Source: Gluconacetobacter asukensis (lineage in GTDB: Bacteria; Pseudomonadota; Alphaproteobacteria; Acetobacterales; Acetobacteraceae). From it: 64,000 bases of DNA. Made by a program: the position numbers and the translations under genes. Shown one piece after another: positions 47,019 through 64,000 of this stretch. The first letter of the stretch is position 1. Each line of letters starts with the position of its first letter. Below the pieces are notes generated by a model that made no database searches, was not told the origin of the DNA, and worked only from the letters and a program-made list of their open reading frames with translations. The DNA is taken from NCBI RefSeq assembly GCF_014174375.1, contig NZ_JABEQE010000017.1, positions 1-64,000 on the forward strand, given 5' to 3'.

Positions 47019-47020
47019 TC

Positions 47021-48783: not shown

Positions 48784-51141
48784 CTATTCTTCATGACGGT
48801 TTGTCCGGTCGGTCTCGGAGAGGCGATTCCAGTCCGGCTCCCGGCCATCCTGCAAGGTCCGGACGAAGAATCCGAACTCCCGGCGCTCCGCATAGCCGAT
48901 CGGCCCCTCCGAGCGCCCCGTCGCATGGCCGCCGCCGGGGACGACCAGAAGCTCGAAGTTCTTGTTCGCGCGAATGAGCGCGCTGGCGACCTGGAACGTC
49001 GAGGACGGATCGACATTGGCATCCTGCTCGCCGACGATCATCAGCAGGCGCCCCTGAAGGCGGCCTGCATTCTCGACGCCCGAGGCACGGACGTAGCTTT
49101 CGTCCACCGGCCATCCGAGCCACTGCTCGTTCCAGTCGATCTTGTCCATACGATTGTCGTAGCAGCCGGCGAATGCGACCGCCGCTTTGTAGAACTCGGG
49201 ATGGAACAGCAGGGCATTCAAGGCGCTCTGCCCACCGGCAGAACCTCCGTAGATGCCCACGCGCGTGATGTCGTAGGACGGATCGCGCGCGGCCATGGCA
49301 CGGTGCCAGAGGATCCGGTCCGGGAAGCCGGAGTCTGCGAGATTCTTCCAGGCCACGTCATGGAAGGCCCGCGACCGGTTCGCCGTTCCCATGCCGTCGA
49401 TCTGCACGACGATGAAGCCGAGATCGGCGAGCGCCTGCATGCCGATGACCTTGTCGCCGCCGGAATGGTAGCCGAACGGCCAGAAATCCTTGGGGACAAA
49501 GCTGTCATGGGGGCCGGCATAGATGTTCTCGACCACGGGATATTTCCGGGCTGGATCGTAATCGCGGGGCCGGACGACGAGCCCCCAGATATCGGTCGTC
49601 CCGTCCCGGCCCTTGGCATGGAAGACCTCCGGCGGCCGGAACCCGGTGGCGCGCAGTCCGGTATCGTCGCCGGTCTCCACGGAGCCAACGACATGACCGT
49701 CCTCGGCGCTCCGCAGCATGCTCCGCGAAGCGAGATCGACCCGCGAATAGGTATCGGCCAGAAGGGCGCCGTCGGGCGAGATCGCCGCGTGGTGATTGGC
49801 CGTCTCGGGTGTCAACGCCGTCAGGTGGGAACCGTCGAAGCCGATCCTGTAGTAGTGGACGAAGTAGGGATCCTCGCCCGGCGTCATGCCGCTGGCGCCG
49901 AACCAGATCTCCCTCTTCCGGTCGTCGACCCGCAGGACCTCACGGACCACCCATGGACCTTTCGTGATCTGGCGCTCGATATGCCCGGTCGTCATGTCGA
50001 ACAGGTAGAGATGGCGCCATCCGTCGCGTTCGGACACCCAGATGAGTTCCCTGCCCTCGTTGCCGACCACATGTTCATATAGCCGCCCGGCATCGACGAA
50101 CGTTCGCGCGCGTTCATCCGCCGCGAGGTGGGCACGCCCTGTTTCCACCTCGACGGAGATGAAGCCAGCGCGCTGATAGCCGCGCTGGACAAACGGGAAC
50201 ATCAGGAACTTCCCGTCCCGGCTCCATCCCACGTCTCCGTTCCGAAGAGGATAGGCGTCAGCGAAGTCGTCGGTGCGAATATCGCGGCCCCGACCCGACG
50301 CGACGTCGAAGAGAACGGGCTGCTCGGAATCGATGATGTCGCCGGGTTTCGGGTAGAGCTGCGTATGGATACGTGGCTGCCCCCCGTCGCGGGGAGCGGC
50401 CTCGACGCGCGTGACATAGCGGGCAAAGCCCGGGCGGACACGAAGGACGGCGAGATGGCGCGAATCCGGCGACCAGACGATGGATTCCGGATCGTAGAAA
50501 TCGCTCGCGGTACCGTCGAGGCTGAGGCGCGTCTCCGCTCCGCCGGCCTTCGCACGGACCACGACGTTATCGGCGCGGACGAACGCTTCCCAGGTTCCGT
50601 CGGGAGACGGAACGGGCGTGTTCCTCGCCGGCACGCGCAGATCCCGCACGGCATCGAAACCGCGCGGCCGCAGGCCGGTCTGTACGGGCCCGCAGGCATC
50701 GTCCTGCAACCCGCACGACCAGTCCTCGTCGTGGATCATGAACTCCAGATGCCGTGGATTGCCGCGGATCGTGAAGCTATCGAACGGGAGGTCCCGGCCC
50801 GTCACCCGCTCGCCCGTCGCGCGGCCCAGCGCGGCGGCGATGCGCTTCGCATCGAAAGCCGGGGCCTTGCGGAGCGTCGCGCGGTCCATCGCGACGAAGG
50901 CAAAGCCTTCCTGGACCGTCTTGCGGTAATAGAGCGTCTTCCCGTCGTCGCTCCACCGCGCCGGAAAGGGAACGTCGCGCGTCAGGTGGCTCCAGTCCCC
51001 GCGCAGGGCAAGAGAACGCTGGTAATCGGCCGCGACGGGCGGAGCCGCGACCCCCCGGGAAGGCATCGCCCCCGCGACGATGCCGGGAAGCAGGCTGACC
51101 AGAATCGCGCCGATCCGTCGCTTTATGACAGGCACCCTCAT
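48784..51141 (-). CDS. S9 prolyl oligopeptidase / dipeptidyl peptidase IV-like, secreted
   Basis: This 785-residue serine peptidase has a signal peptide (about residues 1-32, ending RGVAA). The N-terminal beta-propeller of the DPP IV type covers about 60-530 (SPDGTWEAFVRADN, WSPDSRHLAVLRV). The C-terminal alpha/beta hydrolase carries S634 (GIYGGSAGG), D707 (GEQDANVD) and H739 (GGGHATG). The family cleaves after proline or alanine near the N-terminus of peptides. It is the last gene of a four-gene operon with two M24 peptidases and a GH127 arabinosidase, 24 bp after the second M24 gene, implying proline-rich glycopeptides as substrate. Confidence 0.93.
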   Translation of the reverse strand: MRVPVIKRRIGAILVSLLPGIVAGAMPSRGVAAPPVAADYQRSLALRGDWSHLTRDVPFPARWSDDGKTLYYRKTVQEGFAFVAMDRATLRKAPAFDAKRIAAALGRATGERVTGRDLPFDSFTIRGNPRHLEFMIHDEDWSCGLQDDACGPVQTGLRPRGFDAVRDLRVPARNTPVPSPDGTWEAFVRADNVVVRAKAGGAETRLSLDGTASDFYDPESIVWSPDSRHLAVLRVRPGFARYVTRVEAAPRDGGQPRIHTQLYPKPGDIIDSEQPVLFDVASGRGRDIRTDDFADAYPLRNGDVGWSRDGKFLMFPFVQRGYQRAGFISVEVETGRAHLAADERARTFVDAGRLYEHVVGNEGRELIWVSERDGWRHLYLFDMTTGHIERQITKGPWVVREVLRVDDRKREIWFGASGMTPGEDPYFVHYYRIGFDGSHLTALTPETANHHAAISPDGALLADTYSRVDLASRSMLRSAEDGHVVGSVETGDDTGLRATGFRPPEVFHAKGRDGTTDIWGLVVRPRDYDPARKYPVVENIYAGPHDSFVPKDFWPFGYHSGGDKVIGMQALADLGFIVVQIDGMGTANRSRAFHDVAWKNLADSGFPDRILWHRAMAARDPSYDITRVGIYGGSAGGQSALNALLFHPEFYKAAVAFAGCYDNRMDKIDWNEQWLGWPVDESYVRASGVENAGRLQGRLLMIVGEQDANVDPSSTFQVASALIRANKNFELLVVPGGGHATGRSEGPIGYAERREFGFFVRTLQDGREPDWNRLSETDRTNRHEE

Positions 51142-51165
51142 TCTCCGCAGGCAGGAAGGAACAGC

Positions 51166-52923
51166 TCAGATCGGGCGGCACGCCGCCCCAAGCCAGGCGG
51201 CATCGTCCGGCGGCAGAAGTGGACCGATCTCGTCGAGGACGCAGGCATGATAGGCATCCAGCCAGCGTCGCTCCCCCTCGTCCAGAAGTCCGACCCGCAG
51301 GGCGGAGCGGTCGATGGGCGCGCGGGTCAGCGTATCGAAGCGGCAGAACGCGCCGTCCCCGCCGCCGACGGCCAAGAGGGTCTCCATGGCATTCTCAAGC
51401 CGCATGCCGTGCGATCCCGGCGCGTAGTAGCCGGGCTCGTTGGTCAAGACCATGCCCGCTTCGATGGAGTCGAGGACCGGCCGCCGGGTGAAACCGAGCG
51501 GCCATTCATGGACACTGAGATAGCTGCCGAGGCCGTGCCCCGCGCCATGGTCGAAATCCAGCCCAACCTCCCAGAGCGCCTCGCGCGCAAGCGGATCGAG
51601 CCGATATCCGGGCGTCCCGGCGGGGAACACGGCGCGACTGAGCCGGATCAGCCCCTTCAGCACGCGCGTATACTGGTCCCGCCATGCCTCCGGCGGCGGC
51701 GCCGCGCCGACCCAGACCGTCCGCGTCACGTCCGTCGTGCCACAGCGATACTGGCCGCCGCTGTCGACAAGAAGGAACGAGCCCGCCTCGATCCGCCGGT
51801 CGGCGCGCCCGTCCGGCAGATAATGCATGATCGCGGCATTCGGACCGGAGGCGACGATGGAGGGGAAGCTCGCACCCGCGCATTCCGGCGACGCGCGTCG
51901 CAGCGCAAGGAGATGGGCGGCGGCCGCGCTTTCCGTCTCCCCGATCCCGTGCCGGTCGAGCCATGCGAGGAAACGACAGAGCGCCACGCCGTCGAGGCGA
52001 TGCGCCTGCCGCATCCCAATGCGTTCAGCCTGCGTCTTGATCGCGCGGGGACGTAGACACGGGTCCGTCCCTTCCCGAAGCGTCGCGCCGGACGCGCTCA
52101 GGATTTCGGCGAACCAGACCGGGACGCGCTGCGGATCGAGCCGGACCACGAGGCCGCCGCACGCGCGAAGGACGCCCTCCATCGCGCCCGGCGGCACGAC
52201 GGTCACGGACGCCCCCAGATGCGCGCGGACCTCGTCGCTCACCCGGTCCGGCGCGACGAACAGGATCACCTGCCCATCCGCCCGCAGCAGAGCCTGAGCC
52301 CGGATGATGGGCAGGCACGGAAGATCGGTTCCGCGCAGATTCAACAGCCAGGCGACGCTCGTGGGGTCCCCCAGAACGACCGCGTCCTGACCCTCCGCGC
52401 GCAGACATGCCGCGATCTCGGCGATCTTGCTTGCCGTCGAGCGACCGGACAGCCGCTCGGGCTGGGTTTCCGCGACGCCCGCCGGTTCGTCCGGACGCTC
52501 CCGCCAGATCGCATCCACGGGGTTTCGGGGCAGCGGCACCATCGTCACGCCGGCTGCACGGAACATCGCCAGGTCCTGCCCGGCGGTCACGCGCGGATCG
52601 TATCCCACCCGCCGGTCCCCCGCGTGGCGGGCAAGCCATGCGCCGGGCGGTGTCTCGTATTGATGGCCGATGCGCCAGATCGCAGGGTCGATCTGCCCGC
52701 GCATCTGCTCCTGATAACGCCCGTCGGAAAAGACGATCGCTTCGTCCGGAAGGACGAGGGCGAAGCCGGCGCTTCCGCTGAAGCCCGTCAAAAAGGCGAG
52801 GCGTTCGGCGCTGGCGGGCACGTATTCGCCGAGATACTCGTCCCCGCGCGGGAGGAAGAATCCGTCCACGCCGAGACGCGCCAGTTCGCCGCGAAAGGCT
52901 TCGAGCCGCTGTGCCGGGGTCAT
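51166..52923 (-). CDS. Xaa-Pro aminopeptidase (M24B family, long form)
   Basis: This 585-residue metallopeptidase has N-terminal creatinase-like domains and a C-terminal pita-bread domain. The dinuclear metal ligands are D387, D398, H463, E496 and E510 (LLVDSGG, TTDVTRTVW, GHGLGSYLSVHE, TNEPGYY, MRLENAME). It removes an N-terminal residue preceding proline. No signal peptide is seen, so it acts in the cytosol. The ATG at 52923 overlaps the GH127 stop as ATGA. A longer open frame upstream lies inside GH127 and is not coding. Confidence 0.93.
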   Translation of the reverse strand: MTPAQRLEAFRGELARLGVDGFFLPRGDEYLGEYVPASAERLAFLTGFSGSAGFALVLPDEAIVFSDGRYQEQMRGQIDPAIWRIGHQYETPPGAWLARHAGDRRVGYDPRVTAGQDLAMFRAAGVTMVPLPRNPVDAIWRERPDEPAGVAETQPERLSGRSTASKIAEIAACLRAEGQDAVVLGDPTSVAWLLNLRGTDLPCLPIIRAQALLRADGQVILFVAPDRVSDEVRAHLGASVTVVPPGAMEGVLRACGGLVVRLDPQRVPVWFAEILSASGATLREGTDPCLRPRAIKTQAERIGMRQAHRLDGVALCRFLAWLDRHGIGETESAAAAHLLALRRASPECAGASFPSIVASGPNAAIMHYLPDGRADRRIEAGSFLLVDSGGQYRCGTTDVTRTVWVGAAPPPEAWRDQYTRVLKGLIRLSRAVFPAGTPGYRLDPLAREALWEVGLDFDHGAGHGLGSYLSVHEWPLGFTRRPVLDSIEAGMVLTNEPGYYAPGSHGMRLENAMETLLAVGGGDGAFCRFDTLTRAPIDRSALRVGLLDEGERRWLDAYHACVLDEIGPLLPPDDAAWLGAACRPI

Positions 52924-55334
52924 GGCCAGGCTTCCTCGTCGCTGGGATCGCCCAAGGGCGGCAGCCCGTCCGCCGCCAGCATGGCGACACCGAAGACGGG
53001 CCCGGCCGAATGGTCCGGATCGGGGCGGAACGTGATGGCGACCGGCCGGCCCGCCGCGGTCAGCGCCGCCGGCAGTGGATAGCGGACGCTGAAAAAGCGG
53101 TCGGGATGCCCGGCCTCCAGCATCTGGCGGGCGAGGACGGCACCATTGGCGAGGATGGCGAAGCGGCGGTCGCGCTCCCCGCCCCAATAGGTGACCTGCA
53201 ACACGGCCGGGCCGGGCCGCGTGCGCATCGTGAACGTGAAATGCCCGCCGGACCGCGCATCCCGCCCGTTGCGGCCGCGATAGACGACCGGGAAGGACAG
53301 CGCGCTGCTCAACGCATGGTCCCGTTCGGCCTGCATCTCGCCGGGGTGGAAGACGTCCGCCGCATGGGTATCCAGAACGCGGCGACGTTGCTCGGCCGCC
53401 CGGAAACGCGCCTGCTCGCGCGTCCATTCCTCGGCCGTGAACACGGGGAGGTAGGGTGCCGCCCGCCGGTCGTGCTGGGCATGGAACGCGCTCAGCAGCA
53501 GGTCGCCAGGCCGCCCGGCGCCTTTCGTCCGCCACGTTCCCGGCGCCTCACCGGGAACCAGCGACCCGAGGGCTGCCTCGCTCACCAGGGCGGGGGCCGG
53601 GCCGTCGAACGGCGCATCGACCGAGCCGAGATCGGCGGCGAGCACGGTCGGGCCGTGCAGGAAGGCGATCATGCGGGGATCGTCGTTCGCCGCCTCGGCC
53701 CGCAGCGGCAGGTCGAGGATGAGCTCGATCACGTCGCCGGCCCTCCAGACGCGCCGGAGGACGACGTAGCCATCCTGGCGCCCGCCCGTCTCCGCCACGC
53801 CGTTCACGGCCAGCGTCACGCCCGGACACCAGGCGGGAACGCGCAGGCCGAGCGTGCGCTCCCCCTCGCCCGCGCCGCCTTCCACGGCAAGGCGGACCGT
53901 TCCGCTGTCGGGATAGGCCGTCTCGAGCCTGAGGCGCATCCCGCCTTCCTCCCACCGCACGCGCGATGGGATGAAGAGATTGACCAGGAGCGTCGTGCGA
54001 CCGACCTGCCAGTAGATCGAATCGCCATGTTTCGCATGGCTCTCCATGCCCGTCCCGACGCAGCACCAGAAATCGTCGAACGACGTGGAATACTGGCGCG
54101 CCGCGCCCGCCATCATGGGCGTCATGTAGCAGAACATGCCGGTGCGCGGGTTCTGCGCGGCGCGGATATGGTTGAGATGCGTGCGCTCGTAATAATCGAA
54201 GAAGCGGCTGTCGCCCGACTGGCCGTAGAGCTGGCGGGTCAGCTTCAGCATGTTGTAGCTGCTGCACGTCTCGCAGGTCTGCTCGGTGAGATGACGGGAG
54301 ATCGTGTCGGGCAGCGGGAAATATTCGCGGTCGCCATTGCCGCCGATGACATAGCTGTAGTGCCGCGTCACGCTTTCCCAGAAGGTGCGCGCGGCCGTCA
54401 GGGCCCTGGCATCGCCCGCTACTTCGTGGAGACGGGCCAACCCGACGAGTTTGGGAATCTGCGTGTTGGAATGCAGGTTGGCGAGATCGTCCCGCCCTTC
54501 CTGAAGCGGATCGAGCACCCTGCCGTCATGGATGAGGCGCGCGAGGCGAAGCCAGCGGGCCTCGCCGGTCCGGGCGTAAAGCTCGGCGAAGCTCTCGTTC
54601 AGACCGCCATATTCGCACGACAGCACGGCCTGAAGCTGCTCGTCGTGCAGCGGGGCGAGGATGCCCTCGATATAGCCGCCCAGCCGAATCATGATCCCCT
54701 GGGCGTGGAGATCGCCACAATGGGCCTGCGCGTCGAGAAGCCCCGCGAAGAGCTTGTGCCAGTTATAGAGCGGCGACCAGGCGCCATTCAGGTCGAAACC
54801 GGTCGAATGGATGCGGCCGAGGCGGATCTGCTCGAAGGCCACCTTGCCGGGCAGCGTGCGACCGTTCTGTATGCAGGTGAATCCCGCGACATATCCCACG
54901 GGGTCGCGCGACTGGCAGGCGACGAGTTCCGCCGTGATGTAATGGACGCGGCGCCTTGCCTCCACGTTGCCCGTCTGCGCGTGGCAGAGGCTCAGCGCGC
55001 TGAGGTAGTGGCCGAGCGTATGGCCGGCGATCGTCTCGCCTTCCCAGCCGCCATAGGCCGCGCCTTTCGGCTGCAAACCCGCCTGCTCGCGATAATTATG
55101 CAGCAGACGGTCCGGGTCCAGGCGCAGGAGATAGGCCGTGTTGACATCCTGCGCCACCAGCCAGGGCGACGGATCGAGCCGCACGTCGCGCATCGGGACG
55201 GCAGTCGCGACGCCCTCGCGCGCCGGGTCGGCCGCCTTCGCCTCCCCCCGCCGGGAGTCTGGAAAGGGAAGCCCGGAAACAGGAAGAACGGCGCCCGCGC
55301 TCAGAAGCGCCCTGCGGGACAGCGAGCCCTTCAT
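52920..55334 (-). CDS. Glycoside hydrolase family 127 (beta-L-arabinofuranosidase-like), secreted
   Basis: This protein of 804 residues starts with a Tat-type signal (SLSRRALLSAGAVLPVSG). The GH127 zinc site of HypBA1 is recognisable: E355-T-C357 (TCETCSSYNML) and C424-C425 (DFWCCVGTGME), the first of this pair aligning with the catalytic cysteine. GGNGDREYF probably carries the acid/base glutamate. The family removes beta-L-arabinofuranose, classically from arabinosylated hydroxyproline of extensins. It is coupled by ATGA to M24 peptidase genes on both sides (55331-55334 and 52920-52923), which is unusual and informative. Confidence 0.92.
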   Translation of the reverse strand: MKGSLSRRALLSAGAVLPVSGLPFPDSRRGEAKAADPAREGVATAVPMRDVRLDPSPWLVAQDVNTAYLLRLDPDRLLHNYREQAGLQPKGAAYGGWEGETIAGHTLGHYLSALSLCHAQTGNVEARRRVHYITAELVACQSRDPVGYVAGFTCIQNGRTLPGKVAFEQIRLGRIHSTGFDLNGAWSPLYNWHKLFAGLLDAQAHCGDLHAQGIMIRLGGYIEGILAPLHDEQLQAVLSCEYGGLNESFAELYARTGEARWLRLARLIHDGRVLDPLQEGRDDLANLHSNTQIPKLVGLARLHEVAGDARALTAARTFWESVTRHYSYVIGGNGDREYFPLPDTISRHLTEQTCETCSSYNMLKLTRQLYGQSGDSRFFDYYERTHLNHIRAAQNPRTGMFCYMTPMMAGAARQYSTSFDDFWCCVGTGMESHAKHGDSIYWQVGRTTLLVNLFIPSRVRWEEGGMRLRLETAYPDSGTVRLAVEGGAGEGERTLGLRVPAWCPGVTLAVNGVAETGGRQDGYVVLRRVWRAGDVIELILDLPLRAEAANDDPRMIAFLHGPTVLAADLGSVDAPFDGPAPALVSEAALGSLVPGEAPGTWRTKGAGRPGDLLLSAFHAQHDRRAAPYLPVFTAEEWTREQARFRAAEQRRRVLDTHAADVFHPGEMQAERDHALSSALSFPVVYRGRNGRDARSGGHFTFTMRTRPGPAVLQVTYWGGERDRRFAILANGAVLARQMLEAGHPDRFFSVRYPLPAALTAAGRPVAITFRPDPDHSAGPVFGVAMLAADGLPPLGDPSDEEAWP

Positions 55335-56485
55335 CCGAAGGGCTGCTCGAAGCGCACGGCCGGTTCCGTGAACCAGCGCGGGCCGTCTTCCGTGACGTAA
55401 AAATGATCTTCCAGCCGGATTCCGAACCGGTCGGGCACCACGATCATCGGCTCGATCGACGCGCAATGGCCTAGCCGCAGGGCCGTCTCATTGCCGCGCA
55501 CCAGATACGGCGTCTCGTGAATCGAGAGGCCGACGCCGTGCCCAGTCCGATGCGGCAGGCCGGGCAGCCGGTAGCCGGGGCCAAGGCCATGGCGCACCAG
55601 CACGGCGCGGGCGGCGTCATCGACCGCATGGCACGGCGCCCCCGGCCGAGCGGCGGCGAAGGCGGCGCATTGCGCCTCCCTCTCGATCGCCCAGATGCGC
55701 GCCTGTTCCGGCTCCGGGACTCCGAACGCGTACGTGCGGGTGATGTCGGCGTGATATCCGTCGATCCGGCACCCCATGTCCACAAGCACGAGGTCGTTCT
55801 CGCCGAGGACCTGGTCCCCTTGGATACCATGCGGGAACGCCGTGGCCTGACCGAACTGGACGGCGCAGAAGGTCGTGCCGTCGCGCGCCCCGAGATCGCG
55901 ATGCGCCTGATCGGCGAACCGACGCACCTCGCTCGCCCGCATGCCGGGGCGCAGGGACGCAAAGACGGCCTTGTGCACGGCGAGCGTCAGGCCCATCGCG
56001 TAACGGATCAGGGCGATCTCGGCCGGTTCCTTGACCGTGCGCAACGTGTCGATGACCGGCACGTCGTCGAGAAAGACAAGATCGGGCCGCGCGGCACGCA
56101 AGAGGGTAGCGAAACGCAGCGACATGTCCGGATCCAGGACGACGCGCTGCCCGGCTTCCAGCGAGGCCAGCATGATCGCCGCGGCGGACTCGTCCTCCTC
56201 CCACGTCAGGACAGGAAGCGGCAGGCGCAGACAGTCGGCAAGCGAGCCGGTCTCGAACCGGGGGCACAGGATCCAGGGGTCGCCCGAGACAGGGATCGCC
56301 AGGGCCACCAGCCGCTCCGTCGCGCTCCACGGTACGCCGCAGAAATAGCGCAGGCTGTCCCCGGCGTTGACGATGAGCGCGTCCGCCCCCCGCGCGCGCA
56401 ACAGGGAGCGCGCGGCCTCGATCCGTCCTGCGAACTGGTCCGGCCCGATGGGGGGTGGGGCCTCGGCATTGCTTCCCATGGTCAC
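55331..56485 (-). CDS. M24-family Xaa-Pro peptidase (prolidase/aminopeptidase P-like, short form)
   Basis: This 384-residue metallopeptidase has a creatinase N-domain (about 15-150) and a pita-bread catalytic domain. Metal ligands are D236, D247, H316, E345 and E359 (LVLVDMGCRIDG, HADITRTY, GHGVGLSIHE, SIEPMIV, RLEDHFYV). It lacks a signal peptide and is cytosolic. It probably cleaves Xaa-Pro dipeptides or short peptides. An ATG two codons in (56479) is equally possible. It is the first gene of the operon, with a good promoter and palindrome just upstream. Confidence 0.92.
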   Translation of the reverse strand: MTMGSNAEAPPPIGPDQFAGRIEAARSLLRARGADALIVNAGDSLRYFCGVPWSATERLVALAIPVSGDPWILCPRFETGSLADCLRLPLPVLTWEEDESAAAIMLASLEAGQRVVLDPDMSLRFATLLRAARPDLVFLDDVPVIDTLRTVKEPAEIALIRYAMGLTLAVHKAVFASLRPGMRASEVRRFADQAHRDLGARDGTTFCAVQFGQATAFPHGIQGDQVLGENDLVLVDMGCRIDGYHADITRTYAFGVPEPEQARIWAIEREAQCAAFAAARPGAPCHAVDDAARAVLVRHGLGPGYRLPGLPHRTGHGVGLSIHETPYLVRGNETALRLGHCASIEPMIVVPDRFGIRLEDHFYVTEDGPRWFTEPAVRFEQPFG

Positions 56486-56519
56486 TTGCTCGCTGACGTT
56501 AACTCTATTTCTTTAAAAT

Positions 56520-56547
56520 AGTATACGATAGACGGATTTTCCGTCAA
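56520..56547 (-). promoter_or_regulatory. Sigma70-type promoter of the peptidase/GH127 operon
   Basis: On the minus strand TTGACG (56547-56542) and TATACT (56525-56520) are separated by 16 bp and lie about 35 bp upstream of the M24 start. This is the best promoter match I found in the window. The -10 is part of CGTATACT, which also occurs upstream of the TonB receptor at 61066. Confidence 0.65.
56531..56545. promoter_or_regulatory. 15-bp palindrome overlapping the promoter, probable operator
   Basis: GACGGA-TTT-TCCGTC is a perfect inverted repeat with 6-bp arms, lying between the -10 and -35 hexamers and overlapping the -35. That position suits a repressor. It could alternatively be a weak hairpin after the POT transporter gene (stop at 56563), but no U run follows. 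Confidence 0.5.
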
Positions 56548-56562: not shown

Positions 56563-58053
56563 TCATGAGGCATCCATATGCGGAAACCTGTCTCGCGCGA
56601 ACTGCTTTTCCCAATGTCCCAGCACAGGCAGCAGGGCGACGGCACCCGTGAAGGCGGCGGCGATGAGCAGGGCGAGGTCACGCAGCAGCGGTACGTAGGC
56701 GGCGGCGCCGACCATTGCCCCCGGCTGCCCGCCGATCGCGGACAGGACGCTACCCGCATAGAAAGCAAGCGCCCACAATAGATAAAGCGACCCCATCATG
56801 AAGCCGGACAAACGCGCCGGAACGTAGCGCGCGATGATGGCGAGCCCCAGCCCCATGGTCAGGAGCTCGGCGACCGAGGCGAAGCCATAGGCCACCACCA
56901 TGACCCAGCCCGACACGCGGGCCTGCGCCTGCGCGGCGCAAAGCCACCAGATCATGAACGCCACCATGCCCAGCCCCAGGCCGACCACGATCTTCCAGGC
57001 GAGGGAAAGATCGCGTCCCCTGCCGGCAAGCACCCTGTAAATCCAGGCCAGGAAAGGGCTCGCAGCGAAGATCCAGAGCGGATCTAACGCCTGGAACTGG
57101 CCGGCGCTCAGATGGAAGAGGACTCGCCCGCCGAGATGGAAATCGCCGTCCACCGCACGCAGCGCGAAAAGCGTGAGCGACGTGGCCTGCTGCTGGTAGA
57201 AAAGGGCATATAGCATGGTTTCGGCGCACAACAGATAGGCGATCCGCAGCCCCGCCCGCTCGCCTCGTTCCACCCGGCGATAGAGCCAGATCCAGGCGAG
57301 GACGATCAGTCCCCCGGCAGCCCATACGCCATCGAGCGCCAACCTCCCGTCGCCGAGCACGGCCACGGACGAGATAAGACACAGCACCGTGCCAGCCGCC
57401 ACGATCGCCGCTGCACGCCGGTCGGCCGGCGCCCCGTCGAGCGGGCCGTCCCGTCGGGCGAGCCAGTCCGAGCGCAGCATGTAATAGCCGAGCCCGACAC
57501 CCAGCCCGGCGGCGCAGACGAAGAAGGCGACGGATGGGCCGAAGCGATCCTGAAGCCACGGGCACAGGAGCATGGCCACGGACGATCCGATATTCACGAA
57601 CATGTAGTAGATCGTGAAGGCCGCATCGAGTTCGGCGTCGTCGCCTTCGTAGATCTGGCGCACGATATTGCCGGCATTCGGCTTGAAAAGGCCGTTCCCG
57701 GTTGAGATCAGCGCCATCGCCAGGATGAGCAGCGTGTGGTCGCGATCCACGAAACCGAGGCACAGATATCCCAGCGCAAGAAGTGCCGCGCCCGCCACCA
57801 TGCAGCGCCGGGCACCGATCAGGCGGTCGCCCGCAAGGCCGCCAAGGACCGGTAGCATATAGGTAAGCGCGGAAAAGGCACCGATCAGAAGCATCGCGTC
57901 CGCATCGGAAAGGCGCAGACGCTGGACCATATAGAGCAGCAAGATGGCCTGCGTGCCATAGAACCCGAAACGCTCCCAGAGCTCGATCGCCAGGATGACA
58001 CCGAACGACCGTCCCCGGGATGGCATGTCGGGGGCACGGGAAACGACGGGCAT
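56563..58053 (-). CDS. POT/PTR-family proton-coupled di- and tripeptide transporter
   Basis: This 496-residue transporter has 12 or more TM segments. The ExxER proton-coupling motif is at residues 24-28 (ELWERFGFYG). GGLAGDRLIGARR and FKPNAGNIVRQIY match the DtpT/PepT signature. It imports di- and tripeptides with protons. Placed between the TonB receptor and the intracellular M24 peptidases, it would carry proline-rich peptides made by periplasmic cleavage. A terminator at 58075-58106 separates it from the receptor gene, so it has its own promoter. Confidence 0.94.
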   Translation of the reverse strand: MPVVSRAPDMPSRGRSFGVILAIELWERFGFYGTQAILLLYMVQRLRLSDADAMLLIGAFSALTYMLPVLGGLAGDRLIGARRCMVAGAALLALGYLCLGFVDRDHTLLILAMALISTGNGLFKPNAGNIVRQIYEGDDAELDAAFTIYYMFVNIGSSVAMLLCPWLQDRFGPSVAFFVCAAGLGVGLGYYMLRSDWLARRDGPLDGAPADRRAAAIVAAGTVLCLISSVAVLGDGRLALDGVWAAGGLIVLAWIWLYRRVERGERAGLRIAYLLCAETMLYALFYQQQATSLTLFALRAVDGDFHLGGRVLFHLSAGQFQALDPLWIFAASPFLAWIYRVLAGRGRDLSLAWKIVVGLGLGMVAFMIWWLCAAQAQARVSGWVMVVAYGFASVAELLTMGLGLAIIARYVPARLSGFMMGSLYLLWALAFYAGSVLSAIGGQPGAMVGAAAYVPLLRDLALLIAAAFTGAVALLPVLGHWEKQFARDRFPHMDAS

Positions 58054-58074
58054 GGCGGTATCCGTAAGCTATGG

Positions 58075-58106
58075 AAAAACGCCTCCGGACCCGATGTCCG
58101 GAGGCG
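58075..58106 (-). terminator. Rho-independent terminator of the TonB-receptor gene
   Basis: On the minus strand an 11-bp perfect GC-rich stem (58106-58096 with 58090-58080) and a 5-base loop are followed by TTTTT. It lies 30 bp after the receptor stop and 22 bp before the POT start codon. Confidence 0.9.
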
Positions 58107-58135
58107 GTGTCAAGCAAGGGGGCAGAAGTCGGCGA

Positions 58136-61066
58136 TCAGAATATCCGGCCGACCTGCATGAACACATAGCGGCCGATGATCTCCTCCGGATACATCGAAA
58201 GCGCGGTGTTGGACGCGCCGTCCGGAACGAAGGGCGGCTTCTTGTCCAGGATGTTGTTGACGCCGAGCTCGATCTGCCAGTCGGGCAGGTTGTAGCTGAT
58301 CGTCACGTCATGGGAGAAGACCCCCGGCACCTTGCAGTATGCATAGACCTTGCAGGAAAGATCGTTCGACCCGTCGTTGAACTTCATCCCGCCGGTATAG
58401 CTCATCATGTAGGTCAGGCTGAACCGGTCATGCGACCAGGTGGCGGTGGCGTAATCGCGGACGCGCGGGAAGCCGTAGCCATTCTGGTAGAGCAGGCGAC
58501 CAGCGTAATTGTACCAGGTGCCCCCCGGCTCGTTCTGCTGCAGGTACCCCACGATCTGCTGGAAGTTGTTGTTCAGCATGAGCGAGTCGTGCTTCGTCAG
58601 CCGGAACCGGTAGCTGAGGTCGAAATCGATCCCGTTCGTCCGCAGGCCGCCCGCATTCTCATACGTATCGTTTACCTGCGTCAGTTGCCCGGCCGAACTA
58701 CGCTGAGAGACCAGGTTGCAATAGGACGGGCCGACACCAGTGTAACACTCGTCCACGATGAACTGGACCGGAACCTGAAGGATCGTATTCTTGACCGTGT
58801 AATGCCAATATTCGACGGAGGCCGTGAGGTTCGGGATCCAGCGCGGCGTGATCACGGTACCGAACGTGTAGGTCCGTCCTTCTTCAGGCTTCAGCGCAGA
58901 ATTGCCGCCGCCGAGAGTCGGAATCTGGCTGGAATTGGCGTTGACGAAGGTTGCGGTGTTGATGCCCTGAGAGGCGCACTTGGCAACTACCGCCGCCGAA
59001 TAAGACCCGTAGCTCGACGCCTGTGCGCATGGATCATTGCCGGAATTGTAGCCGATCTGATGACCCGAATAGAGTTCCGTCAAGGTCGGTGCGCGGAATG
59101 ACGTGCCAAGGGTCGCGCGAAAGCGGATATCGCTGATCGGGGCATAGTTGATGCTCGCCTTCCAGTTATAGGCGTCGCCGAACGTATTGTAATGCGACCA
59201 GCGCCCCTGACCGTCGATCGTCAAGTCATGCGCGAACGGCACGTTGCGGAGCAGCAGGAGATTGCTTTCGATATAGGCTTCCGTGACGTCGTATCCGCCG
59301 CCGGTATAGGTCGCGCCGCCGCCGAGATCGCCGTTCACCGCCAGGGGATCGGGCTTGTAGCTGGCCTGCTCGCTCCGATGCTCCAGCCCCATCGCGACGC
59401 CTAAATGGCCGCCACCCTGCCAGGGAAGCTTGGCGAGACGGTTGTTGTGCACGCGCGCGTTGAAATCGCGCATGTAATAGGCGCTATGGTCGACCTGCGT
59501 GTAGCGCAGGTAATTGGCTGCCTGGCCGCTATAGGCCTGGAACGGGTTGACGAGGACGCAGCCGGCCGACGACTTGCAGATGGAAGGATTATAGACGACC
59601 GCACTGTTGGGATCGGCCGGATCGACCTGCTGCGAGCCCAGCTCGTCGAGATAATGAGCGTAGTTCTCCATGTTCTCGGTCGAGAGCTTGGCAAGACTCT
59701 CGCCGTAGGTCATGGAGACGTCGTAATGCCAGTCACCGACGATCCGCCCCTTGGCGCCGCCGATATATTGCCACGTATCGAACGCCTCTTCGTACTTGCG
59801 TGGTCCGATATCGGAGAAACGCTTGTAGAGATCGACGTCCTGACCCCAGATATTGTAAGGGTTTCCCGCCGGCAGCACCACCGAGGTTTCCAGCGTGGAG
59901 GGGTACGACGCGCCAGTCATCGGGTTCCCGGCGAGCGTATTCATCGCGTCCTTGTGCGTGTAGCGTACGGACGAGTAGAAATCGACGTGTTCGTTCAGTT
60001 CGTAATGCGCATCGCCAGCCAGAACACCCTGCTGGAGGGAGTTCGTCAGCATCTGCTCCGAAGCGAAGTTATAGCGGTCGCTCGTCGAGAAATTGTGGAA
60101 CCCGTTGGCACCGCCGCCGGTGCCGTTGCTGACGAGATCGAAATTGCCGCTGGGATCGATAACGCGCGTATTCATCGGGATCGAGCTGCCGACCGCCGCA
60201 TTCTCGCCTATTGCCGGATCAGAATTCCATGGCGTGGCCGACCAGTCGCGGTTCTTCTGCCGGATGCCGGACTGGGTCATGTAGGACCCGAACACTGTGA
60301 TGTTGCCGCGTCCGTGATCGAAGTCGAACCCCTTGTAGCCGGAGAGCAGCCCCATCTGGCCGTCGCCCTTGTCGGTGATCCCGCCGCGGATCGTGATATT
60401 CCCCTTCGTCGTATTGTGCCGCAGCTTGATGTTGATGACGCCGGCCACCGCGTCGGCACCATAGAGTTCCGATCCGCCATCCTTGAGGATTTCCACGGAT
60501 TCGACCATGTCCATGGGGATCGAGTTCATGTCGACGCACTGGCTGCCGTTGCCGAAGGTCGGCACCTGGCGCTTCCCGTCCACCAGGACCAGGACACGGT
60601 TCTGGCCGAGATTGCGAATGTCCGAGCACGACATGCCCAGTCCACCGTTCGTATTCGTATTATTCGTGCCGGAAGCACTGATGGACGGAAGACGCAACAG
60701 ATAGTCGCCCAATGTCGTGGCCGATGTCGACTGGATGTCCTTGGCGGTGATGGTCTGCACCGGATTCGCGTTGGAATCGGCGCGCTGAGAAAGCGCCGAT
60801 CCCGTGACGAGAATCGATTCATCGCGCGGCGCAACGAAGGCCGACGCTGCGCCGGATGACAGAGCGGCGGCGCGAACGGCAGGCTTGGACACGACGGTTG
60901 CCGCCGGTGCGGCAGAAGGGGCGGACACTGGAGCCGTATGCTTCACACGATGGCGGGTGTGGGTCTGGGTTTGCGCCGTCGTTGCGGCAGAAGCCCCGGA
61001 TGCGCAGACGACCGCGACACCCAACGACGTCGAAAGAGCAAGCACCTTTTTCAGATTGATTGTCAT
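58136..61066 (-). CDS. TonB-dependent outer-membrane receptor (large, catabolic type)
   Basis: This receptor of 976 residues has a signal peptide (MTINLKKVLALSTSLGVAVVCASGASA), a Thr/Ala/Pro-rich linker to about residue 85, a plug (ILVTGSALSQRADSNANPVQTITAKDI, then VESVEILKDGGSELYGADAVAGVINIKL) and a long barrel ending with YVFMQVGRIF. The QTITAKDI/YGADAVAGVINI type is that of receptors for oligosaccharides and peptides, not siderophores. Its neighbours point to glycopeptides or arabino-oligosaccharides. An ATG three codons upstream (61075) is possible. Confidence 0.93.
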   Translation of the reverse strand: MTINLKKVLALSTSLGVAVVCASGASAATTAQTQTHTRHRVKHTAPVSAPSAAPAATVVSKPAVRAAALSSGAASAFVAPRDESILVTGSALSQRADSNANPVQTITAKDIQSTSATTLGDYLLRLPSISASGTNNTNTNGGLGMSCSDIRNLGQNRVLVLVDGKRQVPTFGNGSQCVDMNSIPMDMVESVEILKDGGSELYGADAVAGVINIKLRHNTTKGNITIRGGITDKGDGQMGLLSGYKGFDFDHGRGNITVFGSYMTQSGIRQKNRDWSATPWNSDPAIGENAAVGSSIPMNTRVIDPSGNFDLVSNGTGGGANGFHNFSTSDRYNFASEQMLTNSLQQGVLAGDAHYELNEHVDFYSSVRYTHKDAMNTLAGNPMTGASYPSTLETSVVLPAGNPYNIWGQDVDLYKRFSDIGPRKYEEAFDTWQYIGGAKGRIVGDWHYDVSMTYGESLAKLSTENMENYAHYLDELGSQQVDPADPNSAVVYNPSICKSSAGCVLVNPFQAYSGQAANYLRYTQVDHSAYYMRDFNARVHNNRLAKLPWQGGGHLGVAMGLEHRSEQASYKPDPLAVNGDLGGGATYTGGGYDVTEAYIESNLLLLRNVPFAHDLTIDGQGRWSHYNTFGDAYNWKASINYAPISDIRFRATLGTSFRAPTLTELYSGHQIGYNSGNDPCAQASSYGSYSAAVVAKCASQGINTATFVNANSSQIPTLGGGNSALKPEEGRTYTFGTVITPRWIPNLTASVEYWHYTVKNTILQVPVQFIVDECYTGVGPSYCNLVSQRSSAGQLTQVNDTYENAGGLRTNGIDFDLSYRFRLTKHDSLMLNNNFQQIVGYLQQNEPGGTWYNYAGRLLYQNGYGFPRVRDYATATWSHDRFSLTYMMSYTGGMKFNDGSNDLSCKVYAYCKVPGVFSHDVTISYNLPDWQIELGVNNILDKKPPFVPDGASNTALSMYPEEIIGRYVFMQVGRIF

Positions 61067-61099
61067 ATGGGACACTCTCGATCAGCAAGTTTTGGATAA

Positions 61100-61127
61100 A
61101 GTATACGTTTCTCGATCGACATAAAAG
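61100..61127 (-). promoter_or_regulatory. Possible promoter of the TonB-receptor gene
   Basis: TATACT (61105-61100) lies 33 bp upstream of the ATG at 61066, in CGTATACT shared with the promoter at 56520. The -35 match (CTTTTA, 16-bp spacing) is poor, so an activator would be needed if this is used. Confidence 0.4.
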
Positions 61128-61157
61128 ATTTTTTGAAGCCCCCGTGCCCTGAGCCTG

Positions 61158-63449
61158 CTAGATCCGAGCTACCGGAATGCTAAATTTCCGCTGCCCGCCT
61201 GCCGTTCCGTCGATCCGCACGCCAAACGCCGCGAAGGCAGTGCCGCTGCTTCCGTGCTCCACCGGCGCTCCGTGGCGATAGGAGGACGGAAGCCGCACAT
61301 AGAGCCGGGTCTCTCGCGGCGCTGCGGAAGGCAGCGTCAGATCGACATCGATCCGTCGTGTCGCCTCGTCGTAACGCAGGATATAGGAGACCCGGCCCCA
61401 GCACGTCGGAATGCCGGCCACCTGCACGCCTTCCGGCGAGAGGAACCAGTCGCGCGGCAGGGCCTTGGCGAGATGAAGCGTTTCGGCACGGTCATCCTCG
61501 TAGAGCAGGGCCCAGCGCAGCAGGATCGGCACGGTCATCTGCGCTGGCAGGCAGAACAGCGCCAGTTCCCCGCGCAGGCCCGCGACCTCGGCCGCCGTCC
61601 AGCTTCCGCGCGTGTGGGCGTGATAACGATGACCGTAGAGAAAGAGCAGATATTCCTCGACCCGATCGTTGCGAAGAAGGGCTTGGGCATAACCGTAAGA
61701 AATAAAGCCGAGAATATCGCGTTGCGCATGACTGGGCGGTGTTAGGTTGCCGACCAGACCCATGACGGTCGCGCCATGGGCCCGCATCGAGTCGATCGTC
61801 GCCGCCTCAAGGTCCGGGGGCAATATTCCGGATTGAAGCATTTCGCAATAGACACGATGCGCCCATTGCTGCTCGCTGTAGCGATGCCGCGCGAGCGATT
61901 CCCTGAAACGCTCACGCACGCCGGGCAGGATCGGCACGTAGGGCGGGGCGCCGTCATGCTGGATCGAGGCACGCAGTGCGCCTTCGGTGCGCGCGGCCAG
62001 CGCCCCCGCCCGCCGCGCCCAATCGTCCGCGCGCGCGCCGTCTTCCGGCGCGATCCGGTGCCAGACCCGCGCGAGATCGCGAAACCCCCGGGCGGCGAAC
62101 GCGCTGTTGCCGAAATAGGGCTTCCACCATACCGAGGGGTCCGGGAAGAGACAGGCGTCGCTCTCGCTCCATCCATGCAGAAGGCCGTGACCCGGATCGT
62201 CCGCCGGCAGGGCGAGCGCCTGGTCATGCAGCGCAGTCAGCACGCCCGCCATGGCCGCGACGCGCGCCTTGTGCCGCCGCACGGTCGCATCGTCGCCAGT
62301 CAGCTCCAGATAACGCGCGACCAGCGCCAGCGTAAGGCCCGTCTGGCCGACCTCCGGCCCGCGCATGGCGACGAGACCGTCATCTCCCACAAAATCGTCG
62401 AACTGATTGTCAAGGACGGCTTTCGCCTGATCGAACCGCCCCCATTCGAGGTTGGCGAGCAGCGACGCCGTGAAGATATCCTGGAACCCGTCATATTCGG
62501 GGCCTTCATAGTCACGGTCCACGACGCCGTATCGCGGCCAGACCCCGCCCCGCCTCACCATCGCCTCCTTGACGAAGGCATGGCGGGCGAAATCCGCCCA
62601 GTCGGGTTCCGGCAGGACCGGCGTCAGCGTGCCGGCCAACACCCCGTGCCAACGGTCCACGCACCGCAGAAGCGCCCCGTTGAAGGCCGCCTCGTCCGGC
62701 GCGGCGCGGAACGGGCCGAACGGGACGTAGCTGCCGCCATAGACGACGCGGGTCGCACGGCCCTGTTCCACCAGCATCATGCGCTGCCACGTCGGCACAA
62801 GACGCGCATGCTCCGGCGAGACCTCGGCAAAGACGATCACTTCCCAATAACAGCCGGGCCCAAGCGGAAACTGCTTGACCACGATCGGCAGGGCACCGCC
62901 GAGCAGCCCTTCCCGCCGCGCCGCCACGACCGCCGACCCGCGCGCCAGTTCCGGCACAACGCGTTCCACGTGCCAGTTGCGGGTGTTGCCGGCGGGCGTC
63001 AGCGGCATGACGGCGTCGCCGTCAGGCGGTCCGACGAACGCCGTCCAAAGGATTCGACCGGGCTCCTCGGACGCGAGGCGCGTATCGATGGGCGGCGCCG
63101 CGTCGCGCACAGCCGCCGGGTCGGGTTCGCCGCCCGCCAGCAGGCGTTCGGCCAGCAGGTCGCGCTCGGCATAGGCGAGTTCGCCGAACGCCAGGCCGCA
63201 ATAGGGCGCCCGCCCCACCGGCCGGGCGCACCCTTCCATGAAGCGTCCCAATGTCAGGACCCGCCCGCCCGGCCCCCTGAAGACCAGGGCGCCGTCCGGG
63301 GTCGAGCAGTCCTCCAGGACCTCCCACACACCGTCGGGCCGATGCACCGGAGCGAGGGATCGCAGCCCGGACTCCGCGCGCGCCCCACGGACGCCGGCCC
63401 GCGCGCCAATGGCGGCCAGCCCGCCCAGAAGAAGACCACGCCGCTTCAT
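61158..63449 (-). CDS. Secreted protein of unknown family, possibly an alpha/alpha-toroid glycosidase
   Basis: This protein of 763 residues has a Tat-type signal (MKRRGLLLGGLAAIGARAG). I do not recognise a named family. The centre (about 300-600) has helix pairs rich in Trp, Asp and Glu, for example YDGFQDIFTASLLANLEWG, WSESDACLFPD and WWKPYFGNSAFAARGFRDLARVW, which look like the inner helices of six-hairpin glycosidases. The last 120 residues are beta-rich. The ATG at 63449 overlaps the DUF885 stop; a GTG at 63452 is also possible. It lies between DUF885 and the TonB receptor, so a surface or periplasmic glycan-processing role is inferred. Confidence 0.7.
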   Translation of the reverse strand: MKRRGLLLGGLAAIGARAGVRGARAESGLRSLAPVHRPDGVWEVLEDCSTPDGALVFRGPGGRVLTLGRFMEGCARPVGRAPYCGLAFGELAYAERDLLAERLLAGGEPDPAAVRDAAPPIDTRLASEEPGRILWTAFVGPPDGDAVMPLTPAGNTRNWHVERVVPELARGSAVVAARREGLLGGALPIVVKQFPLGPGCYWEVIVFAEVSPEHARLVPTWQRMMLVEQGRATRVVYGGSYVPFGPFRAAPDEAAFNGALLRCVDRWHGVLAGTLTPVLPEPDWADFARHAFVKEAMVRRGGVWPRYGVVDRDYEGPEYDGFQDIFTASLLANLEWGRFDQAKAVLDNQFDDFVGDDGLVAMRGPEVGQTGLTLALVARYLELTGDDATVRRHKARVAAMAGVLTALHDQALALPADDPGHGLLHGWSESDACLFPDPSVWWKPYFGNSAFAARGFRDLARVWHRIAPEDGARADDWARRAGALAARTEGALRASIQHDGAPPYVPILPGVRERFRESLARHRYSEQQWAHRVYCEMLQSGILPPDLEAATIDSMRAHGATVMGLVGNLTPPSHAQRDILGFISYGYAQALLRNDRVEEYLLFLYGHRYHAHTRGSWTAAEVAGLRGELALFCLPAQMTVPILLRWALLYEDDRAETLHLAKALPRDWFLSPEGVQVAGIPTCWGRVSYILRYDEATRRIDVDLTLPSAAPRETRLYVRLPSSYRHGAPVEHGSSGTAFAAFGVRIDGTAGGQRKFSIPVARI

Positions 63450-64000
63450 CACGATGTCTTCTTCTTCTCCGCCTCGATCCAGGCCGCGACGCGCGCCTTG
63501 AGCAGGTCCATCGGCATGGCGCCCTCGTCGAGCACGACATCATGGAAGCGGCGCTCGTCGAATCGGTTGCCAAGCGCGGCCTCCGCCTGATGACGGAGCG
63601 ACGCGATCGTCAGCTCGCCGATCTTGTAGCCCAGCGCCTGTCCTGGCCAGGCGATATAACGGTCCACCTCGTTCTGGATGTTCTTCTCGGCCACGGCCGT
63701 GTTGTCACGCAGACAGGCGACGGCCTGGTCGCGCGTCCATCCCTTCCAGTGCAGCCCGACATCCATGACCAGCCGGCACGCCCGCCACATCTCCATGGAT
63801 AGCTGGCCGAACCGCTCGTAGGGCGTGGGGTAGAAGCCGAATTCCGTGACGAGCTGCTCCGAATACAGGGCCCATCCCTCCACGAACGCCGTCGTGGCAT
63901 AGTCGCGCCGGAAACCCGGAAGATCGGCCATCTCCTGACCGAGCGCGATCTGGATGTGATGGCCCGGCGCGCCCTCGTGCGCGACGAGCGACGGCAGCTC
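63449..64000 (-). CDS. DUF885-family metallopeptidase-like protein, 5' part outside the window
   Basis: Only the C-terminal 183 residues are present; the gene runs off the right edge. The visible part begins near the zinc motif HEGAPGHHIQIALGQ, followed by AFVEGWALYSEQLVTEFGFY, which supplies the third ligand region. GQALGYKIGELTI is also typical of DUF885. The family is thought to contain zinc-dependent carboxypeptidase-like enzymes, but its substrates are poorly defined. It overlaps the next gene by a few bases, so both belong to one operon. It would add another peptidase to the proline-peptide locus. Confidence 0.88.
   Translation of the reverse strand, partial: ELPSLVAHEGAPGHHIQIALGQEMADLPGFRRDYATTAFVEGWALYSEQLVTEFGFYPTPYERFGQLSMEMWRACRLVMDVGLHWKGWTRDQAVACLRDNTAVAEKNIQNEVDRYIAWPGQALGYKIGELTIASLRHQAEAALGNRFDERRFHDVVLDEGAMPMDLLKARVAAWIEAEKKKTS

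Follow-up and report, generated by a model that had tools for sequence, protein, structure and literature searches.

A Putative HypR-Controlled Locus for the Use of Hydroxyproline-Rich Glycoproteins in Gluconacetobacter asukensis

Gene Content and Extent of the Locus

The window is a stretch of 64,000 nucleotides from one contig of Gluconacetobacter asukensis, and its right-hand part carries genes that a first-pass annotation had described as a glycosidase, two M24 peptidases, an S9 peptidase, a POT importer, a TonB-dependent receptor, an unrecognized secreted protein, and a DUF885 protein, all on one strand. Open reading frame and domain scans confirmed each of them, on the minus strand. They are, by position, the S9 peptidase (48784–51141; DPPIV_N and Peptidase_S9), a long M24 protein of the aminopeptidase P type (51166–52923; Creatinase_N, Creatinase_N_2, M24, and M24_C), a GH146-like, predicted β-L-arabinofuranosidase (52920–55334), a short, prolidase-like M24 protein (55331–56485), the POT di/tripeptide transporter (56563–58053; PTR2), the TonB-dependent receptor (58136–61075), a secreted protein of 764 aa (61158–63452), and the secreted DUF885 protein, whose gene spans 63449 to contig base 65254, beyond the end of the window. 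ATGA overlaps join the glycosidase gene at both ends to the two M24 genes (the ATG of the long M24 gene overlaps the glycosidase stop codon), and the gap between the long M24 and S9 genes is 24 bp, both as first described.

The locus does not stop at position 64000 but extends on the same contig, whose numbering continues that of the window, and spans 48784 to about 74063. Beyond the window, the minus strand encodes a secreted GH35-type enzyme (65336–66943), a 4-hydroxyproline epimerase (66943–67950), and a DHDPS-family protein that is the putative Pyr4H2C deaminase (67968–68855). A DAO-family oxidase (68986–70197), an aldehyde dehydrogenase (70217–71800), and an APC (amino-acid) permease (71797–73347) follow on the plus strand, and a GntR/FCD regulator (73359–74063) lies on the minus strand. 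To the left of the locus, no match to PF07944, M24, or proline racemase was found among the 20 large window open reading frames scanned.

The S9 peptidase has a Sec-type signal, judged by eye, and its nearest solved structures are the DPP IV-type entries 2d5l and 2z3w, which we take to be prolyl tripeptidyl peptidase of P. gingivalis. The nearest solved structure of the short M24 protein is the proline dipeptidase 5cik (434 bits). Further PTR2 matches occur elsewhere in the genome, on contigs C3 and C4.

The 764-aa protein, which carries a Tat-type signal (by eye), matched no sequence family in Pfam or NCBIfam and none among PDB sequences, in agreement with its initial description as unrecognized. 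Foldseek searches with its two low-confidence structure models (pLDDT 57 and 63) returned GH78 rhamnosidases and ExoMA2 as best matches, then GH127, GH121, and others, at a query TM of ~0.2–0.4; GH121 HypBA2 was seen only as such a weak structural match. Judged by these models, the protein may be an unclassified (α/α)6 glycosidase, with a six-hairpin toroid fold. Its invariant acidic residues, which are candidate catalysts, include E319, D321, D325, E430, and D432.

The Glycosidase Is GH146-Like

The glycosidase combines a PF07944 catalytic domain (399 bits in Pfam) with PF20736 and an additional C-terminal DUF6805 domain, and it is the sole PF07944 match of the genome. Among solved characterized enzymes, it is closest to GH146 (433 bits to 5opj/BT0349 and 180 bits to 8k7x), with only 92 bits to the GH127 entry 4qjy and 54 bits to HypBA1 (3wkw). 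These scores rule out the HypBA1-type GH127 identity that had been assigned to it, and by sequence comparison it is a GH146-like, predicted β-L-arabinofuranosidase. Its N-terminus bears a twin-arginine signal (MKGSLSRRALL, by eye), and the motifs for the acid/base Glu, the Zn-binding Glu-x-Cys, and the Cys-Cys pair with the nucleophile are retained as REYF, ETC, and WCC. In an alignment read by eye, these match the segments of Bll3HypBA1 containing E694, E723/C725, and C804/C805.

The characterized GH146 enzymes Bll4HypBA1 and XeHypBA1 cleave Araf-β1-Hyp (PMC10850190). Because other members act on arabinan and arabinogalactan, and one on AGP (same source), the substrate of a GH146 protein cannot be read from its sequence. 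The genome has no GH43 match over the cut-off, with a single match below it. L-arabinose isomerase (AraA) was not found there, so the main role of the glycosidase may be to lay the peptide bare.

Hydroxyproline Catabolic Genes and Candidate Operators

About 12 kb from the glycosidase gene and in the same cluster, the epimerase scores 500 bits against NCBIfam model NF010578, whose cut-off is 376, which places it at equivalog level; it is the only over-cutoff member of the proline-racemase/Hyp-epimerase family in the genome. The GH35-type enzyme shares the hydroxyproline (Hyp) operon with it. The DAO oxidase, DHDPS, and aldehyde dehydrogenase genes are adjacent and match their Pfam families, although none of them passes an equivalog cut-off. 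By sequence, the gene set for conversion of Hyp to 2-oxoglutarate is apparently complete, although for three of the four steps the assignment goes no further than the family.

The GntR/FCD regulator is accompanied by palindromic candidate sites of the form GT-2nt-AC upstream of locus genes, and this is the spacing given for HypR sites (PMC4494728). A search of the whole 4.39-Mb genome that allowed at most one mismatch located the pattern ATMGTATACGAT four times, three of them in intergenic regions of the locus; the pattern was derived from the locus itself, so that perfect matches there arise by construction, and a reversed control pattern gave three matches in the genome search. In the window alone, three sites were found with at most two mismatches against 1.77 expected, which is not above chance. 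The three palindromes of the locus precede the Hyp operon (68914–68925), the DUF885 gene (65284–65295), and the operon of prolidase, GH146, aminopeptidase P, and S9 genes, where the sequence is ATAGTATACGAT (56518–56529). A GTATAC core (61101–61106) also precedes the TonB receptor gene, at a distance of ~30 bp.

Across other genomes, GTATAC is present within 200 bp upstream of the GH146 gene in 31 of 60 named loci, compared with at most 6 for each of 23 control palindromes of equal composition, and it was present 20–86 bp upstream in all five plasmid loci examined afterwards, including one of Granulicella (Acidobacteriota). The motif separates loci with and without Hyp genes imperfectly because 11 of the 30 loci without them retain it. 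We regard the GTATAC sites as candidate HypR-type operators, to which the regulator would bind.

Distribution of the Locus in Other Genomes

Hyp genes, defined as an epimerase of at least 60% identity or a deaminase of at least 55% within flanks of up to 10 kb, lie beside the glycosidase gene in 30 of the 60 named GH146 loci; the flanks of the other 30, some on short contigs, have none. Epimerase, deaminase, oxidase, short M24, DUF885, and regulator genes recur in the named loci, and epimerase and deaminase adjoin each other in many linked ones. In contrast, POT, S9, and long M24 genes are sporadic, and long-M24 matches at 25–31% in these loci are cross-hits to the short M24 protein. The unit first proposed, of glycosidase, two M24, S9, and POT genes, is thus rejected as the conserved core; Hyp catabolic, short M24, and DUF885 genes recur instead.

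Among 299 genomes sampled from the family (epimerase E values up to 1e-110 and glycosidase E values up to 1e-150), the epimerase is present in seven of the eight GH146 genomes, our own included, and in 50 of the 291 others (Fisher p 4.6e-5, without correction for relatedness). Both genes share one locus in five of the eight. However, 50 of the 57 epimerase-bearing genomes lack a GH146 match, which counts against a link between glycosidase and Hyp genes; where the epimerase is at least 70% identical (16 genomes), seven have GH146. A class-wide sample, with GH146 in 3 of 385 genomes including our own, was too sparse for co-occurrence analysis.

A quick tree of 71 rows rules out a single Hyp-linked GH146 clade: linkage is scattered, with 15 changes compared with 24.1 for shuffled labels. 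All ten Oxalobacteraceae rows are unlinked, and linkage with altered gene order occurs on distant branches. Asaia siamensis encodes, in succession on one strand, a prolidase, GH146, aminopeptidase P, oxidase, aldehyde dehydrogenase, and permease. The Granulicella plasmid locus holds two genes annotated as GH127/β-L-arabinofuranosidase, DUF885, a member of the 764-aa family, aminopeptidase P, and a GntR gene, together with a set of proline racemase, DHDPS, FAD oxidase, and ALDH genes. Among the five plasmid loci, two (L085 and L086) have no Hyp catabolic gene, and one (L084) has the deaminase only. Related loci also occur in Parvularcula, Altericroceibacterium, and Asticcacaulis, among other genera, and in another phylum. 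This type of locus is not peculiar to the acetic acid bacteria, for which it had been proposed.

Comparison with Known Systems

The closest precedents share portions of the locus. The proteobacterial HypR regulon (S. meliloti hyp genes) comprises a GntR regulator, epimerase, oxidase, deaminase, and dehydrogenase, and in some lineages has proline peptidases, a di/tripeptide permease, a TonB transporter, and collagenases as an upstream branch (PMC5343134). The likeness lies in the regulator, predicted Hyp catabolic genes, proline peptidases, permease, and TonB component, but the accessible text names no glycosidase; where those lineages have collagenases, the present locus has a glycosidase and proline peptidases, a difference that suggests glycoproteins of plants or algae.

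Xanthomonas euvesicatoria carries XeHypBA1 (GH146), XeHypBA2 (GH121), and XeHypAA (GH43) genes. The points in common are a GH146 gene, whose product there is active on the Hyp-linked arabinosides of Hyp-rich glycoproteins, and an adjacent gene for a prolyl oligopeptidase that, its authors suggest, may degrade these proteins (PMC6085000). That peptidase is a pseudogene, however, and the accessible text does not mention Hyp catabolism, an epimerase, or TonB. The present locus differs in having no over-cutoff GH43 and in adding the (α/α)6-like protein, the GH35-type enzyme, and Hyp catabolism. HypBA1/HypBA2/HypAA and Bll4HypBA1 of Bifidobacterium longum likewise include β-L-arabinofuranosidases that clear arabinose from Hyp (PMC10850190); there, L-arabinose is supplied as a carbon source (PMC6085000), whereas here the gain appears to lie in peptide and Hyp, and AraA was not found. 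A proposal for Latescibacteria linked a GH127-labeled enzyme to extensin use in silico, but as a genome-wide gene list, with neither a locus nor a Hyp catabolic pathway in the accessible text (PMC4454575). Among the papers listed by our literature searches, which combined Hyp with glycosidases or with enzymes for Ara-Hyp, none was recognized as describing a locus like the present one, most having been judged by their entries alone.

Interpretation and Alternative Explanations

On the sequence evidence, we consider it likely that the locus is one HypR-controlled system that uses O-glycosylated Hyp-rich proteins as carbon and nitrogen. The initial inference, that Hyp-rich glycopeptides are deglycosylated and their Pro/Hyp backbone then digested, has more support than the window could show, since the locus continues beyond the window's end: Hyp genes adjoin, the palindrome is common to both parts, and linkage recurs elsewhere, although the many epimerase genomes without the glycosidase weigh against it. 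The same machinery could have a main food other than extensin, namely AGPs, arabinosylated signaling peptides or lectins, or algal Hyp-rich glycoproteins, and we regard this as quite possible while falling short of probable. The GH35-type enzyme within the Hyp operon, the lack of an over-cutoff GH43 for the terminal α-Araf of Ara4-Hyp, the loci in Parvularcula, Altericroceibacterium, and Asticcacaulis, and the GH146 enzyme that acts on AGP speak for such a food, but no galactanase was recognized among the locus proteins scanned, two characterized GH146 enzymes act on Ara-Hyp, and Sphingomonas relatives from tomato rhizosphere and cabbage fit land-plant walls. Extensin, the substrate first proposed, is one candidate among possible Hyp glycoproteins.

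It is unlikely that the locus is a regulon for scavenging Hyp/Pro peptides in which GH146 is a mere neighbor serving unrelated pectic arabinan. GH146 overlaps proline-peptidase genes at both ends, has an operator-like palindrome in common with the Hyp operon both in this genome and in others, and is linked to Hyp genes in changed order on distant branches. In favor of this alternative, proline peptidases and a di/tripeptide permease are known from HypR regulons (PMC5343134), half of the named loci are unlinked, and one relative has an S9-GH146-DUF885 block beside rhamnogalacturonan genes with no Hyp gene in the stretch. Least probable, and in our view very improbable, is that the locus mainly serves the use of L-arabinose, whose oxidative breakdown would employ the DHDPS protein and the aldehyde dehydrogenase. 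The oxidative route also ends in 2-oxoglutarate semialdehyde with enzyme families common to the Hyp route, and, as AraA was not found, any arabinose use would need another route; yet the DHDPS gene adjoins an equivalog-level Hyp epimerase, an arrangement repeated in many linked loci, and is divergent from the DAO-family oxidase and amino-acid permease genes.

In the preferred reading, a glycoprotein-using system, the TonB receptor would import glycopeptides into the periplasm, where Tat-secreted GH146 would remove β-L-arabinofuranose from Hyp, assisted by the GH35-type enzyme and the (α/α)6-like protein, which may replace the GH121/GH43 steps of known systems. By family-level assignment, the bared chain would be cut by DUF885 and the S9 prolyl di/tripeptidyl peptidase, short peptides and Hyp/Pro would enter through POT and the APC permease, and cytoplasmic prolidase and aminopeptidase P would split Xaa-Pro/Hyp bonds. 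Hyp would then pass to 2-oxoglutarate through the epimerase (equivalog level) and the oxidase, deaminase, and aldehyde dehydrogenase (family and synteny), while the GntR/FCD regulator, presumably relieved by Hyp, would control the locus through the candidate GTATAC operators.

More tentatively, these genes may exemplify a widespread class of loci in which a Hyp-responsive regulator commands glycosidases for amino-acid catabolism, and in which the 764-aa Tat protein founds a new Hyp-glycan-specific GH family that replaces GH121/GH43; we regard this broader proposal as possible but somewhat doubtful. Plant and algal walls are armored by Hyp-rich glycoproteins, and bacterial consumption of the whole molecule is poorly known. 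The locus offers a testable list of parts that leads from the outer membrane to 2-oxoglutarate. In loci of two phyla, it connects a family of glycosidases with an amino-acid pathway and the operator-like signature of that pathway, and it draws attention to a glycosidase-like family without a classification. The GTATAC signature could help to find similar loci in plant-associated bacteria.

Gene Content of the Locus

Pfam searches bore out the genes that the first-pass annotation had named, their order and their minus-strand orientation (a glycosidase, two M24 peptidases, an S9 peptidase, a POT importer, a TonB receptor and a DUF885 peptidase), and a check of the sequence found its two ATGA overlaps and its 24-bp gap to be real. 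The window is bases 1–64000 of a contig of 75,185 bases in a genome of 4.39 Mb, and the locus (~48784–74063) runs on into the contig stretch L002 (contig coordinate = L002 + 59999), where DUF885 is followed on the same strand by genes for a secreted GH35-type protein, a 4-hydroxyproline epimerase and a DHDPS-family protein. Divergent from the epimerase side are a DAO-family oxidase, an aldehyde dehydrogenase and an APC permease, followed by a GntR/FCD regulator on the minus strand. Of the four candidate enzymes of the hydroxyproline (Hyp) pathway, the epimerase alone scores above a curated equivalog cut-off (NCBIfam NF010578, 500 bits vs. 376), and no other member of its Pfam family exceeds the cut-off anywhere in the genome; for the oxidase, the DHDPS-family deaminase and the aldehyde dehydrogenase, the assignment rests on family, gene order and conservation. 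The GH35-type protein, which carries DUF5597, clears the Pfam cut-offs; its 421 bits fall short of the NCBIfam GH35_fam cut-off of 500.

The S9 peptidase is closest in PDB sequence comparison to the DPP IV-type entries 2d5l/2z3w, which we take to be P. gingivalis proteins with prolyl tripeptidyl activity, and the short M24 peptidase is closely related to a solved proline dipeptidase (434 bits). By eye, the glycosidase has a twin-arginine signal, S9, DUF885 and GH35 have Sec-type signals, and neither M24 has a signal peptide.

Adjoining the locus on the plus strand (42984–48289) are genes for an MRJP-like protein, gluconate 2-dehydrogenase subunit 3, a GMC oxidoreductase and cytochrome c (three matched stretches), a group that resembles a periplasmic sugar-acid dehydrogenase. 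A strong aldehyde dehydrogenase family match (473 bits; 36172–37692, minus strand) lies ~11 kb from the locus, and an oligopeptide-type ABC importer (solute-binding protein, permease, double ATPase; 22904–28104) adjoins an FAD oxidoreductase. Directly beyond the regulator, where the contig ends, lies a transposase, IS3-like by eye (contig 74238–75056, L002 14239–15057). Because a GH146 match was found in only one of 13 same-genus relatives (47% identity), the locus may have been acquired.

Glycosidase and the 764-aa Protein

The glycosidase (52920–55334, minus strand), which alone matches PF07944 genome-wide, had been assigned to GH127; its best match among solved enzymes is instead the GH146 enzyme BT0349 (433 bits), followed by Bll3HypBA1 (GH146, 180), 4qjy (GH127, 92) and HypBA1 (GH127, 54). 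An alignment to Bll3HypBA1, read by eye, shows that the stretches with the acid/base Glu, Glu-x-Cys and Cys-Cys pair are kept, residues that the consulted part of PMC10850190 describes as needed by that enzyme. According to the same part, the GH146 enzymes Bll4HypBA1 and XeHypBA1 split Araf-beta1-Hyp, and further GH146 enzymes are active on arabinan or AGP. Because the family covers all three, activity of the glycosidase on Hyp-arabinosides is plausible without following from its family membership. The substrate of the locus, previously proposed to be extensin-type glycoprotein, is one that we infer.

The 764-aa secreted protein (61158–63452, minus strand) had no match in Pfam, NCBIfam or PDB sequences. 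Relatives were found in four of 299 family genomes (G. asukensis included), all inside loci of this kind, and in three of 398 phylum genomes, of which two recur from the family count; in the third, G871, the 36 kb covered contain a weak S9 match and a nearby GTATAC, but neither GH146 nor a Hyp gene. Two models built with AlphaFold, both of modest confidence (pLDDT 57 and 63), show a beta-sandwich, a helical toroid and a beta-sandwich, for which Foldseek ranked GH78 rhamnosidases and the exo-arabinanase ExoMA2 at the top and HypBA1 and GH121 HypBA2 lower. A set of invariant residues was identified in the family, and on the models the protein is probably an unclassified glycosidase.

A Candidate Operator in the Locus

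The Hyp operon has the palindrome ATCGTATACGAT in its divergent promoter. One-mismatch copies precede DUF885 and occupy the short intergenic gap ahead of the prolidase–glycosidase–aminopeptidase–S9 operon, and the TonB gene has a GTATAC core ~30 bp upstream. Allowing up to two mismatches, L002 has two matches vs. 0.24 expected (5 of 200 shuffles reach two); the window alone has three vs. 1.77 expected (25 of 100 shuffles), which is no excess. The genome has four sites that match ATMGTATACGAT with at most one mismatch, and three of these fall in the locus (three matches for the reversed control); the pattern was derived from locus sites, so that its perfect fit there is by construction, but its rarity elsewhere in the genome is not. 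Its GT-2nt-AC spacing agrees with that reported for sites of HypR, the GntR-type regulator of Hyp use, in the portion of PMC4494728 consulted. We infer both the binding of the regulator to these candidate operators and its inducer.

Conservation of the Glycosidase with Hyp Genes

The 60 named GH146 loci that were fetched were all scanned with 15 locus proteins (flanks up to ~10 kb per side, shorter at contig ends). Half of them (30/60) have an epimerase (at least 60% identity) or deaminase (at least 55%) in the flanks; the other half have no such gene there, and the ten Oxalobacteraceae rows of the tree all belong to this unlinked group. GTATAC occurs within 200 bp upstream of the glycosidase gene in 31 loci (20/30 linked, 11/30 unlinked), and the best of 23 control palindromes of equal composition in six of 60. 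Of 28 Hyp-linked loci chosen by hand (G. asukensis, four from the family, 23 named), 25 have the core no more than 150 bp upstream of a Hyp-catabolic gene (control mean 1.9) and 18 have it within that distance upstream of the glycosidase gene (control mean 0.9).

Among the 299 family genomes, eight encode the glycosidase (E up to 1e-150), 57 the epimerase (E up to 1e-110) and seven both (Fisher p 4.6e-5, own genome counted, relatedness uncorrected), leaving 50 of the 57 epimerase genomes without the glycosidase. An identity of 70% or more to the G. asukensis epimerase is reached by 16 of the 57, and seven of those 16 genomes encode the glycosidase. The two genes share a locus in five of the eight glycosidase genomes (own included), lie on separate contigs in G608 and 43 kb apart in G668, and G574 has no epimerase match. 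Asaia siamensis encodes prolidase, glycosidase, aminopeptidase P, oxidase, aldehyde dehydrogenase and permease in succession on one strand.

Five plasmid loci, drawn from 204 matching plasmid records (list top plus the match of the 764-aa protein, 1 of 72,556 plasmids), were examined after the motif was fixed, and all five have GTATAC 20–86 bp upstream of the glycosidase gene. The ~34-kb locus of Granulicella tundricola (Acidobacteriota), which holds the 764-aa relative, encodes two GH127/beta-L-arabinofuranosidase-annotated proteins (36% and 26% identical to the G. asukensis glycosidase), two DUF885 proteins, an aminopeptidase P-type protein, two M1 peptidases, a peptidylprolyl isomerase, a GntR protein and proteins of the proline-racemase family (34%) and of DHDPS (43%), FAD oxidoreductase and aldehyde dehydrogenase type. 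The two arabinofuranosidase-annotated genes (6345–9185 and 9565–11967 of L083) are adjacent and divergent, with GTATAC between them. The Novosphingobium locus has epimerase and deaminase and Sphingomonas L084 deaminase alone; L085 (tomato rhizosphere, adjoining rhamnogalacturonan genes) and L086 have no Hyp-catabolic gene in the stretch covered. In the Sphingomonas loci L084, L085 and L086 a DUF5695 gene lies close to GH146 on the other strand, and GH146 and DUF885 have a gene for an Ldh-family oxidoreductase between them.

Relation to Known Systems

The consulted part of PMC5343134 describes HypR regulons to which proline peptidases, a di/tripeptide permease, TonB receptors and collagenases belong; unlike the locus here, they have no glycosidase in that description. 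Partial texts also describe Xanthomonas glycosidases for Hyp-linked arabinose with a broken prolyl oligopeptidase adjoining (PMC6085000) and extensin use proposed from gene lists (PMC4454575). Our search of open-licence PMC literature found no paper uniting the HypR/Hyp regulon half with the glycosidase half, so that, judged from gene content, two systems known separately would here form a combination new in the literature searched. The G. asukensis genome search found no L-arabinose isomerase and no GH43 above cut-off, which fits a system gaining peptide and Hyp, and oxidative use of arabinose is possible.
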